From assembly GCA_026197095.1 (NCBI GenBank), contig JAPHTF010000012.1, forward strand, positions 1 to 64,000: a stretch of 64,000 bases of DNA. The letters run 5' to 3'. Below, piece after piece: positions 4,986-14,835 of the stretch. This DNA comes from Gammaproteobacteria bacterium. Lineage in GTDB: Bacteria > Pseudomonadota > Gammaproteobacteria > UBA6429 > Thiohalophilaceae. The notes beneath the pieces were generated by a model. It ran no database searches. It worked only from the letters and a program-made list of their open reading frames with translations, and was not told where the DNA came from. How positions within the stretch are numbered: the first letter of the stretch is position 1; every line of letters begins with the position of its first letter. Position numbers and translations under genes: made by a program.

Positions 4986-5042
4986 CTAACCGTTCCTTTT
5001 TTTAATAAAAAACAAATAAAAAATTATATTGTTGTTGTAAGA

Positions 5043-5063
5043 GGAGGGGAGTTACACCCCTCC
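5043..5063 (-). promoter_or_regulatory. GC-rich stem-loop between dsrC and dsrM
   Basis: A perfect 7-bp inverted repeat GGAGGGG / CCCCTCC with a 7-nt loop lies between the dsrC stop and the dsrM start. There is no T-run directly after it on the minus strand, so it is not a classic terminator. It is better read as a processing, stabilising or attenuating element that would give more dsrC than dsrM mRNA. That function is inferred. Confidence 0.6.
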
Positions 5064-5089
5064 AACTACAAACTATCTGGTGTACGTGA

Positions 5090-6608: not shown

Positions 6609-7685
6609 TTAGAAACGGATATGAGTAGAAGCATTCAAGCTGTTACGAGCACCACGCCAGTTATCAATATGATACTTAGTGAATGGTAAACCAGTAACTT
6701 CGAAGAAACGTGGCCAACCGATACGGTCGATCCAGTCGTTAATACGTTCCCAATCTTTAGCGCCTTCTTTGTATTCTTTAAGAATGCGTTTAACGATTGC
6801 AGTCGCTTCAGGCCAACGTGGTGGATTATTTGGTACGCCAGCAGCCACTAATTTTTGGAAGCTAGGCTTGCTACGTGCATTCGAGTGATTACCACCAACC
6901 CAGATAGCTAACTTAGAGTTTTCTGGATCATTGATTTGCATTGGAGGACATGGTGGGAAACAAGCACCACAACAGATACATTTCTTTTCATCAACTTCTA
7001 AAGAAGGACGGCCGTTAACCATAGCTGGACGAATCGCAGCAACCGGGCAACGTGCAACAACTGTTGGACGTTCACACACGTTAGCAACTAAATCATGATT
7101 GATTCTTGGTGGCTTAGTGTGCTGAACATTGATCGCGATATCACCTTGACCACCACAGTTAATCTGGCAGCAAGAAGTTGTGATATGTACACGGTTAGGC
7201 ATATTGCATTGTTTGAACTCGTCAATTAACTCATCCATCATTGCTTTAACAACACCAGATGCATCAGTACCTGGAATATCACAATGTAACCAACCTTGTG
7301 TGTGCGACATCATTGCAACAGAGTTAGCAGTACCACCAACAATGAAACCCGCATCTTCTAAAGCTTTAATTAAAGCATCAACTTTAGAACCATCTGTAAC
7401 CATGTATTCAATGTTTGAACGTAATGTAAAGCGGATAAAACCATCAGCAAACTTGTCACCAATCTCCATGAGTTTACGTAAAGAGTAAACGTCCAAGATA
7501 CGTTGTGTACCTGCTTTAACAGTCCAGATTTCATCGCCGCTGTGAGCAACGTGAAGTAAAACGCCTGGACGTGGATGTTCATGATATTTCCACTGACCAA
7601 AGTTTTTACGCATTGTTGGATGCATATACTGGAAGCCATCTGGGCAACCAGACTCAATCGGTGAGCGCATATCTTCAAGAGCCAT
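6609..7685 (-). CDS. dsrB: DsrB, reverse dissimilatory sulfite reductase beta subunit
   Basis: 358 aa. The sirohaem/[4Fe-4S] cysteines are visible in TTSCCQINCGGQGD and in the VCERPTVVARCPVAA region. A ferredoxin insert KKCICCGACFPPCPP binds a further cluster. With DsrA it forms the cytoplasmic alpha2beta2 enzyme that oxidises DsrC-bound sulfur to sulfite. The oxidative direction is inferred from the DsrEFH and DsrL partners, since reductive and oxidative forms cannot be told apart by motif alone. The gap to dsrA is 54 bp. Confidence 0.97.
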   Translation of the reverse strand: MALEDMRSPIESGCPDGFQYMHPTMRKNFGQWKYHEHPRPGVLLHVAHSGDEIWTVKAGTQRILDVYSLRKLMEIGDKFADGFIRFTLRSNIEYMVTDGSKVDALIKALEDAGFIVGGTANSVAMMSHTQGWLHCDIPGTDASGVVKAMMDELIDEFKQCNMPNRVHITTSCCQINCGGQGDIAINVQHTKPPRINHDLVANVCERPTVVARCPVAAIRPAMVNGRPSLEVDEKKCICCGACFPPCPPMQINDPENSKLAIWVGGNHSNARSKPSFQKLVAAGVPNNPPRWPEATAIVKRILKEYKEGAKDWERINDWIDRIGWPRFFEVTGLPFTKYHIDNWRGARNSLNASTHIRF

Positions 7686-7739
7686 ATTAATCTCCTAGTA
7701 CTTTAAATCTAATTCGTTTTAATAATTAACACGCTTGAA

Positions 7740-8999
7740 TTATGCAGAAGCTTCTTCAGCTTTGCGTTCAAACCATTTTTCAGCTTCTTCATCCCAGCCG
7801 TCCATACGAACGTAAGAAGATTGGCGTGGATTGCTAACCATGTGTGGGTTAACGTCTACATCAATTCCTTCAAGGAAGTTAACTAAGCCAATACGCTCGA
7901 TCATTTCACCCGTACGCTCATGTTCTAAAGCATTCTCAGCGAAGAAATCGATGATATCGCCTGCCATTTCAACAAGCTCTTCGTAATCTTCTGCAGTATC
8001 AAGTTTCTTGAATGGAACAACTACTGTACCCATTAAGTCACCAATCTTCAGTGTACGTTTACCACCGATAAGAATTGATACACCTTTGTCATCACCAGGA
8101 GATAAAGCTTTAGTCATAACATTTAAGCAATGCATACAACGTACACAGTTGCTGTTATCAACAGTTAATTCATCGCTATCTGACAAAGTCATGCAGTTAG
8201 TAGGGCAACGAGTAGTCACGTTGTCGATGATGTATTGACGGCCTTTAGCTTTGATGAAATTTTTAACTTCAGCCTGGTCAATTTTCATATCATCACGCCA
8301 TGTACCGATTACTGCGAAGTCAGCACGTTCGATAGCATTTTGACAGTCATTTGGACAACCAGAAACTTTGAACTTAAATTTATAAGGAAGTGCTGGACGG
8401 TGAACATCATCAGTAAATTCGTTTACAAGGTGACGGTGAATAGCATGTTCGTTTGCACAAGATTGTTCACAACGAGCAGCACCAACACAAGACATAGCAG
8501 TACGTACACAAGGACCTGCACCACCTAAATCCCAGCCATATTCATTGATTTCATCAAAGAAGTGCTGGATACGAGCTGTATCAGTTCCGATGAACATGAT
8601 GTTACCCGTTTGACCGTGGAAAGTGATAAGACCCGAACCGTATTTTTCCCAGCTATCAGCCAGTTGGTTCATCATGTCAGTTGTGTAGTAGTTACCTGGA
8701 GTAGGTTGTACACGTAAAGTGTGGAATTCTTTAGACTCTGGGAAAGCGTTACCCACTTCAGAGAAACGTGGAATGATACCACCGCCGTAACCGAATACAG
8801 ATACGGTACCGCCTTTCCAATAACCTTTACGAGTTTCGTAAGAGTGCTCTAATTGGCCAAGTAAATCACCAACAGCTTTGTTGATATGTTCACTTGGATG
8901 ATTGTCACGAAGACGTTTAAAACCTGAGATGAATGAAGGCCATGGACCTTTTTCTAATTCATCAAGCATTGGTGTGTCATGGATTGTAGCTTTTGACAT
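7740..8999 (-). CDS. dsrA: DsrA, reverse dissimilatory sulfite reductase alpha subunit
   Basis: 419 aa. Cluster and sirohaem ligands appear in CVGAARCEQSC and CPNDCQNA, and a ferredoxin insert in TRCPTNCM and NCVRCMHCLN. The start is supported by the purine-rich AGGAGA seven bases upstream on the minus strand. It is the first gene of the operon. The 600 bp upstream are non-coding and rich in inverted repeats, as described separately. Confidence 0.97.
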   Translation of the reverse strand: MSKATIHDTPMLDELEKGPWPSFISGFKRLRDNHPSEHINKAVGDLLGQLEHSYETRKGYWKGGTVSVFGYGGGIIPRFSEVGNAFPESKEFHTLRVQPTPGNYYTTDMMNQLADSWEKYGSGLITFHGQTGNIMFIGTDTARIQHFFDEINEYGWDLGGAGPCVRTAMSCVGAARCEQSCANEHAIHRHLVNEFTDDVHRPALPYKFKFKVSGCPNDCQNAIERADFAVIGTWRDDMKIDQAEVKNFIKAKGRQYIIDNVTTRCPTNCMTLSDSDELTVDNSNCVRCMHCLNVMTKALSPGDDKGVSILIGGKRTLKIGDLMGTVVVPFKKLDTAEDYEELVEMAGDIIDFFAENALEHERTGEMIERIGLVNFLEGIDVDVNPHMVSNPRQSSYVRMDGWDEEAEKWFERKAEEASA

Positions 9000-9162: not shown

Positions 9163-9606
9163 ATTCTTTCAGTTGCGACGAAGTCTATGTGCCTCATGCC
9201 GTGACGAGAATCACACTGATGGGGGGTTAGGTAAGCCTGGCTTATCCCATTGTGGATATAAGCAACCTAGCCTTAATCCCATCTTAAACTATGCCTCTAG
9301 TGCAACATAACTTTGCATCATTCTATTAACCCGTATTAAAACAAGGAGTTAATAGATACCACATGCAGGATATATAGTCGTACATCCTGCTTGTGCTTAA
9401 ATCACGTATACTTAAAAGTTGAGGTGCTGGATATAACAATGCGACTCACTCTTAAAACTAGTATGCTTTCCTCGCTTATCATGATTATGCTACTGAATAA
9501 CCTAGTAAAATAATCAAGAATGCCGTAAGGATCGTGGGCGTATTTTACTGTTGCAAAAAAAGATTGCAATACTTAGATGGGTATAACTTGAGTTTATCTA
9601 CATATA

Positions 9607-10554
9607 ATGGTTAAAAATCACTCACCTTTTTCATTATTACCTGAAGCAGAACCGGCTTATCAGATGTGGCGCGATTGGAAATTATCTGTCTATCCAAAAC
9701 AGTCCAATGAATTACTTGTGTCAATTGATAATCCCTTTACTTTAACTGCAAATGAAAAGGAGACAATTCGGCAATGTTTCATTCGTGCCAATATGGCAAT
9801 TTACTCTATTAAATATATGTCTGATTTTGCGAGCAAAAAAATTGTTGAAATAATAGGCAATGAATTTGGTTTATTTCGTTTAGACAATAACCTTGGAGCT
9901 GATAGTGATAACATCACATCGCTACAAGTGATCGAAGGCGGACGTAAGCAAGGATATATCCCGTATAGCAATATGAAACTCAGCTGGCATACGGATGGTT
10001 ACTACAACCTTGCTGAGGAACAGATTAGAGGCGTAATCTTGCATTGCGTTAATTCAGCCGTTGAAGGTGGTGAAAATGCGCTTTTAGACCATGAAATGAT
10101 GTATATACACTTGAGAGATCGCGATCCTGCCTATATATCTGCATTGATGAAGCCAGACGTTTTAACGATTCCAGCTAACATTGAAAATGGAGTAAACATT
10201 CGTGACGCACAAACGGGGCCTGTTTTTTCTATTGACCCGAATTCTGGTGCTTTACATATGCGCTATAGCGCACGAAAACGAAATATCATCTGGGCTGATG
10301 ATAAGGTTACAGCAGCAGCTGTAACTGCAATAGATGACTTTCTGGCAAGTGATTCACCCTGGATAATGAGGCATCGGCTTGAGCCTGGACAAGGATTGAT
10401 TTGTAATAATGTATTACATAACCGCACATCATTTAATAATGGTGATGCTAGTGAAAATCAACGTTTAATTTATCGTGGACGTTACTATGATAGGTTATCC
10501 GATACCTCTTTTAACGATACTGCAAAAGCAATATTCATTAGTTCCAGCAATTGA
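9607..10554 (+). CDS. TauD/TfdA-type Fe(II)/2-oxoglutarate dioxygenase
   Basis: 315 aa. The iron-binding triad is visible: His128 and Asp130 in SWHTDGYYN and His271 in VLHNRTSF, followed by the 2-oxoglutarate arginine in LIYRGRYYDR. The family hydroxylates small organic molecules such as taurine, betaines or alkyl sulfates; the substrate here cannot be told from sequence. It is divergent from dsrA across the control region and starts a short plus-strand run with the 62-aa gene and the Cas6-like gene. A sulfonate or organosulfur substrate would fit a sulfur oxidiser, but that is speculation. Confidence 0.85.
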   Translation: MVKNHSPFSLLPEAEPAYQMWRDWKLSVYPKQSNELLVSIDNPFTLTANEKETIRQCFIRANMAIYSIKYMSDFASKKIVEIIGNEFGLFRLDNNLGADSDNITSLQVIEGGRKQGYIPYSNMKLSWHTDGYYNLAEEQIRGVILHCVNSAVEGGENALLDHEMMYIHLRDRDPAYISALMKPDVLTIPANIENGVNIRDAQTGPVFSIDPNSGALHMRYSARKRNIIWADDKVTAAAVTAIDDFLASDSPWIMRHRLEPGQGLICNNVLHNRTSFNNGDASENQRLIYRGRYYDRLSDTSFNDTAKAIFISSSN

Positions 10555-10580: not shown

Positions 10581-10769
10581 ATGTTGTATTTAAGTGAAGT
10601 GTTAATGGAAGGCCATGCTTTGGAAAGTTTTAAAGAGCTTTGCCAGGCCGTTTCTGAAAAAGGAAAGGCGGGAGAAATGTTTTTTCGCATAGATGTAAAA
10701 CCCCCGTTTACCGACACACCAGAAAATTGGGAAGAGCAACTTGAAGCCGCGTTTACTTCTGCATATTAA
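10581..10769 (+). CDS. Small conserved-looking protein of unknown function
   Basis: 62 aa, acidic, no cysteine pair, no signal peptide and no membrane segment. I do not recognise it. It sits 26 bp after the TauD-type gene, with an AAGGA ribosome site upstream of the ATG, and 24 bp before the Cas6-like gene, so the three genes look like one transcript. It may be a partner of either neighbour. Confidence 0.6.
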   Translation: MLYLSEVLMEGHALESFKELCQAVSEKGKAGEMFFRIDVKPPFTDTPENWEEQLEAAFTSAY

Positions 10770-10793: not shown

Positions 10794-11492
10794 ATGGATG
10801 AGAAATTTATGTATTGGAACGAAGATAAAAAAACAGAAAAGTTTGAAATCCCTGATGATATTGTCGATTTATCCTTTGTCATAAAATGCAAATGCCTGCC
10901 ACTCGAGCATATGCATGCGCTTTCTGAAAGTTTATGTGCAGCTTTACCCTGGCTTGAAAATGAAAAGCTTGCAGGAATTCATCCTATCAATGGAGCTGAG
11001 TCAGGTAATGGTTGGGAACGTTCATGTGATCCAAACGAGCTTATCTATTTATCTCGTCGTCAAAAGATGACTTTACGTTTGCCAAAAGAACATCTCGATT
11101 CAGCAGAAGAACTCGTTGGCCAAACATTAAGTGTTGCAGGGCATGATATTGAAATAGGAAAAAGTTCGATAAAAAAATTGAGTGATTTACCTACAGCTTT
11201 TTGTCGCTCAATTTTGGTTGATGGCCGCATGGAAGAAGAAGACTTCTTACAATGGGCATTTGAGGAGTTAAAAGCATTAAATATTAATGTACGCAAGATG
11301 ATGCCAGGCAAGGAAAGGATTATAAAACTAGCTGATAATAAAGTACGAATCACACGTAGCTTAATGGTTGCAGAGCTGGAACAGGCCGAATCAGTACGTC
11401 TTCAACAACATGGTATGGGTGAGGGCAGAAAGTTAGGTTGTGGAATATTTATGCCACAAAAAGATATAAAAGCGGTTAATTCAGACGATTAA
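10794..11492 (+). CDS. Cas6/Cmx6-like RAMP-fold protein, no CRISPR array nearby
   Basis: 232 aa. I recognise the pattern of the type I-MYXAN Cas6 (Cmx6) family from memory. An N-terminal beta strand (VDLSFVIKCKCLP) is followed by the helix with HMHALSESLCAALPWL, then a central LTLRLPKEHLDSAEEL segment. Near the C-terminus a glycine-rich loop GMGEGRKLGCGIF fits the G-loop (G-x-G-x(n)-G-x-G) of Cas6 and other RAMP proteins. Canonical Cas6 cuts CRISPR precursor RNA, but this window has no array and no other cas gene. Its neighbours are the TauD-type gene, the 62-aa gene and a DsrC paralogue, so it may act on another RNA. His39 and His41 and the Tyr residues could be catalytic, but I cannot assign them. 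Family assignment is moderately sure; function is open. Confidence 0.65.
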   Translation: MDEKFMYWNEDKKTEKFEIPDDIVDLSFVIKCKCLPLEHMHALSESLCAALPWLENEKLAGIHPINGAESGNGWERSCDPNELIYLSRRQKMTLRLPKEHLDSAEELVGQTLSVAGHDIEIGKSSIKKLSDLPTAFCRSILVDGRMEEEDFLQWAFEELKALNINVRKMMPGKERIIKLADNKVRITRSLMVAELEQAESVRLQQHGMGEGRKLGCGIFMPQKDIKAVNSDD

Positions 11493-11615: not shown

Positions 11616-11954
11616 ATGGCACTGGAAGTAAACGGACAAACAATCGCAACTACTGATGATGGCTATCTTGAAGACTCAAATGATTGGAACTTAGACGTTG
11701 CACAAGCAATTGCTGATGCAGACGAGTTACCGATGACAGAAAGACACTGGGATGTGGTTAACTATTTGCGCGATGAGCATGTTAATAATAATGGTGCTGA
11801 GCCAAATGAACGTACTATTTTAAAAGCGATGAGTAGTGCTTGGGGCGAAAAAGTGAGCTCTAAAATAATGTACGAAATGTTCCCCGCAATGCCTTCGAAA
11901 CAAGGTCGTAAAATTGCAGGTTTACCAAAAAGTACACGTAAAGGCGGTTATTAA
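11616..11954 (+). CDS. DsrC/TusE-family paralogue lacking both redox cysteines (RspA-like)
   Basis: 112 aa and clearly a DsrC homologue: it keeps LEVNGQTIATTDDGYLED, the RHWDVVNYLRDE core and the AGLPK arm motif. The C-terminal arm reads GRKIAGLPKSTRKGGY, so Cys99 of DsrC is replaced by Arg and the penultimate Cys is gone. It cannot carry sulfur by the DsrC chemistry. Cysteine-less DsrC-like proteins have been described as RspA, with a suspected regulatory role; some DsrC proteins bind DNA. A GAGGAAT ribosome site precedes the ATG. It lies 2.6 kb from dsrA on the opposite strand. Confidence 0.85.
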   Translation: MALEVNGQTIATTDDGYLEDSNDWNLDVAQAIADADELPMTERHWDVVNYLRDEHVNNNGAEPNERTILKAMSSAWGEKVSSKIMYEMFPAMPSKQGRKIAGLPKSTRKGGY

Positions 11955-12103
11955 GCCATTAATTGGGCTAAATATCGAATCTAGGCCAAAATGGGTATAG
12001 TCTGATTCATTGTAGACTGGTAAATTTCGTTTTAAGGATTCGATTCCAACAAATTTTAGCTTTTCGGGTATAGTCGAAAAGCAAACATACTGAGGATTTA
12101 AAA

Positions 12104-12322
12104 ATGAGTGAAAAAGCAAAATTAATCGCAGAAATGCTCGAAATGCAAAAAATGTTTCAAGATTATGAACATAAAAATGGTGTAGATTCTGCAGAATATT
12201 TCGCAGCTAAAGAAGGTCATCCATTATTTGGTTATGCTCAAAAATATCAAGATTTAGCCAACAAAGTTGATGCTATGGCTCATGAAGATAAAGGTTCAAC
12301 TCGTTGGTTTAAATCTCATTAA
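12104..12322 (+). CDS. Small helical protein of unknown function
   Basis: 72 aa, mostly charged and helical (for example KLIAEMLEMQKMFQDYEH), without cysteine or membrane segment. I do not recognise it. A GAGGA ribosome site precedes the ATG, and a strong intrinsic terminator follows 17 bp after the stop, so it is a real, separately ended gene. It may share a transcript with the DsrC paralogue upstream. Confidence 0.7.
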   Translation: MSEKAKLIAEMLEMQKMFQDYEHKNGVDSAEYFAAKEGHPLFGYAQKYQDLANKVDAMAHEDKGSTRWFKSH

Positions 12323-12653: not shown

Positions 12654-13328
12654 TTAAAGTTCTGACCACATGCGAAATAAATTCACATACGAGACATCAA
12701 TTTGTTTAGTCTCTACATCATCCGGACGTGTCTTTAATAATGATTCACGTGCCTGATTTAACTGATAGAGTAACTCACGTTTAGCCGGGTCTCGTATCAT
12801 GCTTTGAGACCATGTCACTGCGACTAAACGCGTACCTTTAGTGACCTCTGCAACATGGTGCAAGCTTGAAGAAGGGTAAACGACAGCCGAGCCTGCAGAG
12901 AGTTTAATTTTTTGTTCACCAAACGATGTGCGTATTACTAACTCTCCACCTTCATATTCATTTGGTTCATTTAAAAATACTGTTGTAGAAACGTCAGAAC
13001 GATATTGTTGTCCTGCATTTCCCATAATAGGATCATCTACATGATCACCGTATGTCATACCTTTGTTATAACGTGCATAATAAGGCGCAGCTACTCTTAA
13101 TGGTATTGCAGCGGCCTTAAACTCATCATGTTGAATTAAACTTCCCATAACAATGTTATTAAGTTGTTGCATTTGTGTATCATCAATCGAAAGTTCTTCA
13201 TTATTTTTAACACGTTTTGCCGCCATACCCGCAGATAACGTTCCATCAACAAAATTGGCTTTTTCCAAGGTTTGCTTAACAAAATCAAGTCGTTGTTGAT
13301 CAAGAATATTTGGGATTGTTATGAGCAT
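12654..13328 (-). CDS. PKHD-type Fe(II)/2-oxoglutarate hydroxylase (PiuC/YbiX family)
   Basis: 224 aa, the usual length of the family. The iron ligands are His96 and Asp98 in YGDHVDDP and His157 in SSLHHVAEV, with Arg167 (KGTRLVAV) for 2-oxoglutarate. Family members are often iron-regulated and linked to siderophore uptake, but no TonB receptor is present here. The start ATG is preceded by CAGGTAATT. It is a single gene divergent from the 105-aa gene. Confidence 0.88.
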   Translation of the reverse strand: MLITIPNILDQQRLDFVKQTLEKANFVDGTLSAGMAAKRVKNNEELSIDDTQMQQLNNIVMGSLIQHDEFKAAAIPLRVAAPYYARYNKGMTYGDHVDDPIMGNAGQQYRSDVSTTVFLNEPNEYEGGELVIRTSFGEQKIKLSAGSAVVYPSSSLHHVAEVTKGTRLVAVTWSQSMIRDPAKRELLYQLNQARESLLKTRPDDVETKQIDVSYVNLFRMWSEL

Positions 13329-14229: not shown

Positions 14230-14835
14230 TTAAGCAAAAACAATCCAAGTTGTGGCTATATATTTTACACCTTCATTAACGGTTACAGCACGATGCTCAT
14301 GTGTCCAAAATGGTGGGAACAATACCAACTTTCCTTTTTCCGGCGTTACTTTTACATCTTGAAATAAGAACTCTGTTTCACCTCCGGGGCCTGGAACATC
14401 ATTCAAATACCAAAGTGCAACTAATTGACGTTGACTAAAATCGTGTGAGCCACCATCTATGTGCCAGTGATAATACTCAGCTGGATTGTAACGTTGTATG
14501 CCATAACCCATATCTTTAAATGGTCCTTTAAAATAGGGGTATGCTTCACGGAATTCTTTAACGGCTATTCCTAATGAACGAAATAAATTGTTATCAACAT
14601 CTTTCCAGTGTTCTTTACCGCTGACAACAAGATCGGTTGTTTTTTTAATACTGGTATCCTGTGAAACAGTTTGGCCAATGCGTCCTTGGTATTGATCTTC
14701 AGTATTTTCTTCAAATCGTCTGATCATATCGTCACATAATTCTGTAGGTAACGCATTTTTTTGTTCAAAAATAAAAGTGTTTGGTTTAACTTCTTTTATG
14801 GTTTTAAGTGGGCTTGATTGAGATGACAGAGACAT
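14230..14835 (-). CDS. 2OG-Fe(II) oxygenase (prolyl 4-hydroxylase-like)
   Basis: 201 aa. The iron triad is His125 and Asp127 (HWHIDGG) and His179 or His181 (PFWTHEHRAV); a double-stranded beta-helix pattern with LWYLND and GGETEF is clear. A basic residue after the last His (KYIATTW) would bind 2-oxoglutarate. The substrate is unknown. It is the third oxygenase of this superfamily within 5.3 kb. Confidence 0.85.
   Translation of the reverse strand: MSLSSQSSPLKTIKEVKPNTFIFEQKNALPTELCDDMIRRFEENTEDQYQGRIGQTVSQDTSIKKTTDLVVSGKEHWKDVDNNLFRSLGIAVKEFREAYPYFKGPFKDMGYGIQRYNPAEYYHWHIDGGSHDFSQRQLVALWYLNDVPGPGGETEFLFQDVKVTPEKGKLVLFPPFWTHEHRAVTVNEGVKYIATTWIVFA

Follow-up and report, generated by a model that had tools for sequence, protein, structure and literature searches.

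A Cas6-family protein outside CRISPR-Cas is linked to the reverse-Dsr locus of sulfur-oxidising bacteria

Introduction

Since members of the Cas6 family are, to our knowledge, known solely for the processing of CRISPR guide RNA, we asked why a gene of this family is found next to the genes of reverse dissimilatory sulfite reductase, and whether it belongs to a CRISPR system, to sulfur oxidation, or to both. Marine and symbiotic sulfur oxidisers rely on reverse-Dsr sulfur oxidation as a main energy pathway, and we know of little that has been established on the regulation and accessory factors of this pathway. The stretch of DNA analysed, hereafter the window, comprises 64,000 nucleotides. A first-pass annotation of it had read the 232-aa product as an orphan RAMP-fold Cas6 of the Cmx6 group, used outside immunity in a combination of genes that might be conserved in other sulfur oxidisers.

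Results

Identity and fold of the 232-aa protein

Searches with the 232-aa protein gave 196.5 bits against the Pfam model PF09559 Cas6 (cut-off 26.7), 130 bits against the NCBIfam model TIGR02807 cas6_cmx6 (cut-off 98.85) and at most 204 bits against the Cas6 models of PADLOC, and the sole relative by sequence in the PDB was 8fcj, the Cas6 of a type I-B CRISPR-associated transposon. An AlphaFold model built with 29 natural homologues (pLDDT 88.4) met the test for a Cas6/RAMP fold, as far as a predicted model can. The top Foldseek matches of this model were the Cas6 chains of 8fcu and 8fcj (8fcu_B best; TM 0.78/0.83), Pyrococcus Cas6 and Cse3 ranked next, and nearly all matches at E<=0.001 were Cas6/Cse3 or Cascade chains. 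The C-terminal glycine-rich loop GMGEGRKLGCGIF is conserved in relatives as GxGxxRxxGCG. The protein is unambiguously a genuine member of the Cas6 family, and the assignment to the Cmx6 group with a C-terminal glycine loop was thus confirmed, the absence of a structural match that would have refuted it not having been met.

CRISPR status of the genome

No CRISPR-like repeats were found in the 64-kb window, and neither a cas operon nor an array of the same type lies beside the 232-aa Cas6; dsr or module neighbours are seen instead in 111 loci. In the 3.12-Mb genome the 232-aa Cas6 is the only PF09559 gene found and PF01905 Cas7 is absent, and no type I-MYXAN locus was found in it. The only CRISPR-Cas detected was a type I-F variant on another contig (L063 1-10808, contig C130), where matches to I-F variant models identified Cas1fv, Cas3fv, Cas7f/fv, Cas5fv and Cas6f together with an array of GTTCACTGCCGCACAGGCAGCTTAGAAA repeats, spaced by 60 bp and reaching the contig end. 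The gene is independent of CRISPR because this resident system possesses its own Cas6f and because Cas1 is missing from 30 of 59 cas6-bearing genomes, and the 232-aa Cas6 belongs to no CRISPR system in this genome. The orphan status claimed by the first-pass annotation therefore stood for the window, where there are no repeats, and had to be qualified for the genome, where the I-F variant locus lies elsewhere; a complete type I-MYXAN locus with arrays, which would have made the protein an ordinary Cas6, did not turn up, and its proposed place outside immunity was supported.

Neighbouring genes

The features of the window that bear on the locus are collected in Table 1. The dsrAB genes (6609-8999) are divergent from the TauD-p62-cas6 module, and the neighbours anticipated by the first-pass annotation (a TauD-type oxygenase, a 62-aa unknown and a cysteine-less DsrC) were all recovered. 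The p62 protein gave no Pfam or NCBIfam match, and a search with its fold against the PDB likewise returned none. The translation of the DsrC-family protein contains no cysteine, so the test for the C-terminal redox cysteines of true DsrC was not met, and we take it to be the paralogue that goes by the name RspA. A phage origin was rejected, no phage matches having been obtained.

Table 1. Features of the window at and around the dsr-linked cas6 gene
Feature	Position	Strand	Evidence
Strong hairpin between dsrC and dsrM; unproven candidate RNA substrate	5035..5071	-	More stable than shuffles
dsrB	6609..7685	-	Gene order and weak TIGR02064 cross-match at the same place
dsrA, reverse-type dissimilatory sulfite reductase alpha subunit	7740..8999	-	TIGR02064, 619 bits
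Operator-like palindrome TATCCCATTGTGGATATA, dsrA-TauD divergent region	9243..9260	+	38/60 orthologous regions vs 0.38 in shuffles
TauD-family Fe(II)/2-oxoglutarate oxygenase; begins the module, transcribed divergently from dsrA	9607..10554	+	PF02668, 2.5e-17
p62, 62 aa, family unknown, immediately upstream of cas6	10581..10769	+	Conserved neighbour
dsr-linked Cas6-family protein, 232 aa, ATG start	10794..11492	+	PF09559 and TIGR02807 above cut-off, AlphaFold model, Foldseek
DsrC/TusE-family paralogue, RspA-like	11616..11954	+	PF04358, TIGR03342
Related element CCAAAATGGGTATAG, upstream of -10-like TGnTAnAnT, ahead of p72	11986..12000	+	36/49 regions vs 0.47 in shuffles
p72, conserved 72-aa protein of unknown family	12104..12322	+	Conserved neighbour
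PKHD-type Fe(II)/2OG hydroxylase, neighbour conserved only loosely	12654..13328	-	Domain match and synteny

Besides the TauD-family and PKHD-type enzymes, a third distinct Fe(II)/2-oxoglutarate oxygenase is encoded at 14230-14835, so that the dsr locus has three such enzymes encoded no more than about 6 kb away, and all three recur near it in relatives.

Synteny

Comparison of 111 loci, some of which represent the same genome twice, revealed that the order TauD, p62, Cas6, RspA and p72, with dsrA divergent from TauD, was found repeatedly across many families. Counting only those loci in which the contig was long enough, p62 stood at its expected place upstream of cas6 in 102 of 106, RspA was present at its own expected place in 89 of 95 and p72 in 73 of 94, and TauD was near cas6 in 92 of 104, dsrA in 79 of 88 and the PKHD hydroxylase in 71 of 90. 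The TauD, p62 and cas6 genes are tightly packed, with median gaps of 29 and 26 bp. Four genomes of betaproteobacterial type, a designation that is our reading of sequence divergence and not a named taxon, have Cas6 and dsrA as immediate divergent neighbours, with RspA after Cas6 and p62 missing. In about 100 loci Cas6 is linked with p62, RspA and dsr, and these genes are also found together in genomes throughout the class, as the suggestion of a combination conserved in other sulfur oxidisers had foreseen.

Co-occurrence with dsrA and p62

A Cas6 homologue was detected, in one copy each, in 33 of 58 relatives, and when these 58 were scored against strong dsrA matches the few mismatches between the two genes were mostly at contig ends. 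Among 369 genomes across the class, many of them MAGs, cas6 was found in 118 and dsrA in 117; both genes were present in 110, cas6 without dsrA in 8, dsrA without cas6 in 7 and neither in 244 (Fisher p = 1.5e-74, without phylogenetic correction). The discordant genomes were mostly incomplete or had relatives with both genes. The p62 gene was present in 106 of the 369 genomes, all but one of which (105) also carried cas6. At least 535 confirmed stretches contain a Cas6 homologue, and the carriers among the matches listed include Thiohalobacter, Thiohalomonas, Thioalkalivibrio denitrificans, Candidatus Marithrix, Parabeggiatoa, Sedimenticola and Acidiferrobacterales.

The distance between cas6 and dsrA in complete genomes is usually 2-4 kb. 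Two genomes of 1.4-1.5 Mb, G145 and G359, have kept both genes at 42 and 518 kb from each other, respectively, and have retained p62 at yet another location; since the three genes are kept though unlinked, their co-inheritance is not merely hitch-hiking. Five genomes of only 1.0-1.1 Mb with cas6 (G075, G177, G289, G321, G384) all lack Cas1, and all three of the five whose loci were compared (L192, L193, L195) retain the full order from dsr through TauD, p62, Cas6 and RspA to p72. The pattern is broken by G162 (L189), in which the Cas6 module is complete and no dsrA match was obtained, and by G242 (L198), in which dsr and RspA are present and no cas6 match was obtained.

Sequence changes, active site and selection

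The dsr-linked Cas6 sequences were aligned with seven relatives, five in annotated cas operons, one in 8fcj and one on a Gloeobacter plasmid (residue numbers follow the 232-aa protein). The alignment revealed an extra N-terminal FWxED segment and an ESGNGWxRP insertion in the dsr-linked proteins, of which G73, W74 and R89 are invariant in 123/123. The column equivalent to His46 of the Pyrococcus enzyme, E55 in the 232-aa protein, is His in six of the seven relatives and in only one of the 123 dsr-linked sequences; the equivalence rests on a common LHE/LHD motif aligned by eye, the Pyrococcus sequence having been checked against the PDB. The glycine-rich loop and its basic residues are kept (G209 in 121, R212 in 111 and G217 in all of the 123), and so are H39 (122/123) and H63 (116/123).

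The catalytic triad of Pyrococcus furiosus Cas6 is Tyr31/His46/Lys52, the position of the catalytic histidine varies among Cas6 types, and SsoCas6 cuts without the usual histidine (PMC3652601). Cleavage by the dsr-linked protein is not excluded, because of this precedent and because H39 and H63 are conserved. The missing canonical histidine favours RNA binding over canonical cutting, both activities being inferred.

Estimates of omega (dN/dS) for cas6 were 0.05-0.10 in same-genus pairs with estimable dS, several other pairs being saturated, and the gene is under purifying selection. Gamma- and beta-type dsr-linked Cas6 sequences formed a single clade (support 0.80) on a long stem (0.70). The relative on the Gloeobacter morelensis plasmid (L177 5974-6765) is a Cas6/Cmx6 encoded next to a PAPS-reductase-family protein, with no evident cas operon around it, and possibly represents a type IV-B-like or other mobile locus.

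RNA and DNA elements around the locus

The hairpin in the gap between dsrC and dsrM was more stable than all 30 shuffles in 57 of 70 orthologous gaps; across families its pairing is preserved, its sequence is variable and a T-run often does not follow it. It is missing in the three small genomes with the full gene order (L192, L193 and L195), which keep Cas6, and it was for this reason rejected as a universal Cas6 substrate; it is therefore at most one target. Analyses with RNAalifold of the cas6-RspA and RspA-p72 gaps indicated no RNA structure conserved across families, only genus-level hairpins ahead of p72 in the latter, and no structured element conserved across families was found in the cas6 operon. 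An Rfam scan of the first 20 kb returned nothing but sub-threshold chance matches. Immediately before p72, the hairpin GCTTTTCGGGTATAGTCGAAAAGC at 12059-12082 of the window is found genus-wide with compensatory changes.

The two operator-like elements of Table 1 have in common the motif TATCCC-N4-6-GGGATATA / CCAAAxTGGATATAG, and the p72-side copy sits about 20 nt upstream of the -10-like element. This shared motif suggests that a common transcription factor may act on dsr and on the Cas6 module. The dsr genes of Allochromatium vinosum are co-transcribed, with an additional promoter for dsrC (PMC3368242), and DsrC has been reported to bind DNA upstream of dsr (PMC5944118), so a DNA-binding RspA is conceivable. 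The dsrA-TauD region also contains, at 9165-9230 of the window, a block of about 65 nt (TTTCAGTTGCGACG...GTGACGAGAATCACACTGATGGGGG) whose conservation is high within the genus and weak at family level.

Discussion

The reading that we prefer, tentatively and at slightly less than even confidence, is that Cas6 has been domesticated for reverse-Dsr sulfur oxidation as a hairpin-RNA binder acting post-transcriptionally with p62 and RspA. A Cas6/Cmx6-type protein would have been recruited once into the reverse-Dsr locus of an ancestor from which the present sulfur oxidisers of gamma- and betaproteobacterial type descend, and would have stayed with dsrAB ever since. It no longer depends on CRISPR arrays or cas operons. 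Its ligand is most likely a hairpin RNA of the host, bound by the paired RAMP folds and the glycine-rich loop, canonical cleavage being presumably largely gone with the loss of the His46-equivalent. The p62 protein is its probable direct partner, the cysteine-less RspA lies in the same module, and in this company Cas6 would tune, at a step later than transcription, how the Dsr machinery is expressed or assembled. An RNA-binding role is favoured because the RNA-binding elements are kept, the catalytic histidine is lost and the partners are constant. The RNA binding, the post-transcriptional role, the partnership with p62 and the identity of the RNA are inferences, and no RNA substrate has been shown.

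The same residues can be read otherwise. The protein might be an active endoribonuclease, specific for hairpins and with its active site moved elsewhere (H39, H63, R89 and the GNGW loop), that cuts the dsr polycistronic mRNA, for instance at the dsrC-dsrM hairpin, separating dsrABEFHC from dsrMK and setting the level of DsrC. The stability of that hairpin, its pairing preserved despite variable sequence, the near-invariance of both histidines and the shifting position of the catalytic histidine between Cas6 types (PMC3652601) speak for such an enzyme, but the canonical histidine is gone, small genomes keep Cas6 without the hairpin, and intergenic operon hairpins are common and may merely stabilise or attenuate mRNA, so that we regard it as unlikely. 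We also doubt that the Cas6 fold serves without RNA as a protein-binding scaffold or assembly factor of the Dsr sulfur relay with p62 and RspA as clients, although these two are its nearest and most constant neighbours, RspA is of the DsrC family, and a new invariant tryptophan loop was gained as the canonical catalytic residue was lost; against it, the glycine-rich loop and basic residues of RNA-binding Cas6 proteins have been kept.

The established homology of DsrC with TusE and of DsrEFH with TusBCD, together with the annotation of RspA in the TusE/DsrC family, would allow a role in tRNA thiolation, exerted on tRNA or on some other RNA, but cas6 follows dsrA and not the far more widespread tRNA thiolation, and we consider this improbable. 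Least credible to us is an ordinary crRNA-processing Cas6 that serves remote arrays in trans, or the relic of a lost CRISPR locus: the score does exceed the cas6_cmx6 equivalog cut-off and action of Cas6 in trans on other arrays is known, but half of the carriers examined (30 of 59) have no Cas1, the resident I-F variant comes with a Cas6f of its own, and the strict co-occurrence with dsrA, the low omega and the synteny stable across families do not fit it.

Returning to the domesticated RNA binder, a wider claim may be made, on which we are evenly divided: that Cas6, p62 and RspA form an undescribed RNA-based control or assembly module at the core of proteobacterial reverse-Dsr sulfur oxidation, with a CRISPR-derived RNA binder whose immune role is entirely lost and which is needed for central energy metabolism even at about 1 Mb. 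A CRISPR-annotated protein that follows reverse-Dsr with almost no exceptions would be a clear example of a fold for crRNA processing that has left immunity, and the two small unknown proteins, p62 and p72, would become named members of the pathway. The annotation cas6_cmx6 in sulfur oxidisers is no indicator of CRISPR systems.

Comparison with known systems

The open-access literature, to which our search was limited, yielded no published link of Cas6 with dsr or RspA and no orphan or non-CRISPR Cas6 of this sort; the protein family is known, its dsr setting is undescribed in that literature, and the module may itself be a system of a new kind. RspA-type DsrC paralogues are likewise of the DsrC family, cysteine-less and dsr-linked, and their constant link to Cas6 and p62 is undescribed in the same literature.

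The Cas6/Cmx6 of type I-MYXAN (I-B-like) CRISPR-Cas shares with the dsr-linked protein the family scores, the fold, the glycine-rich loop and a DH motif at the start of helix 1. Unlike it, the dsr-linked Cas6 has no cas operon or array, has lost the His46-equivalent in 122 of 123 sequences, and carries the FWxED and ESGNGWxRP insertions and a C-terminal PxK motif; the set that defines the type (Cas3, Cas8/Cmx8, Cas7 and Cas5 with Cas6) is not met, PF01905 Cas7 being absent. Pyrococcus furiosus Cas6, among the next-best fold matches (TM about 0.6), has the His46 whose equivalent is missing in the 232-aa protein. The best relative of solved structure is the Cas6 of the type I-B CRISPR-associated transposon (8fcj/8fcu; TM as above, 22% identity), with which the GIHPI segment is common, while that protein works in a transposon Cascade, possesses the LHEL histidine and is without the GNGW insertion that the dsr-linked proteins have gained.
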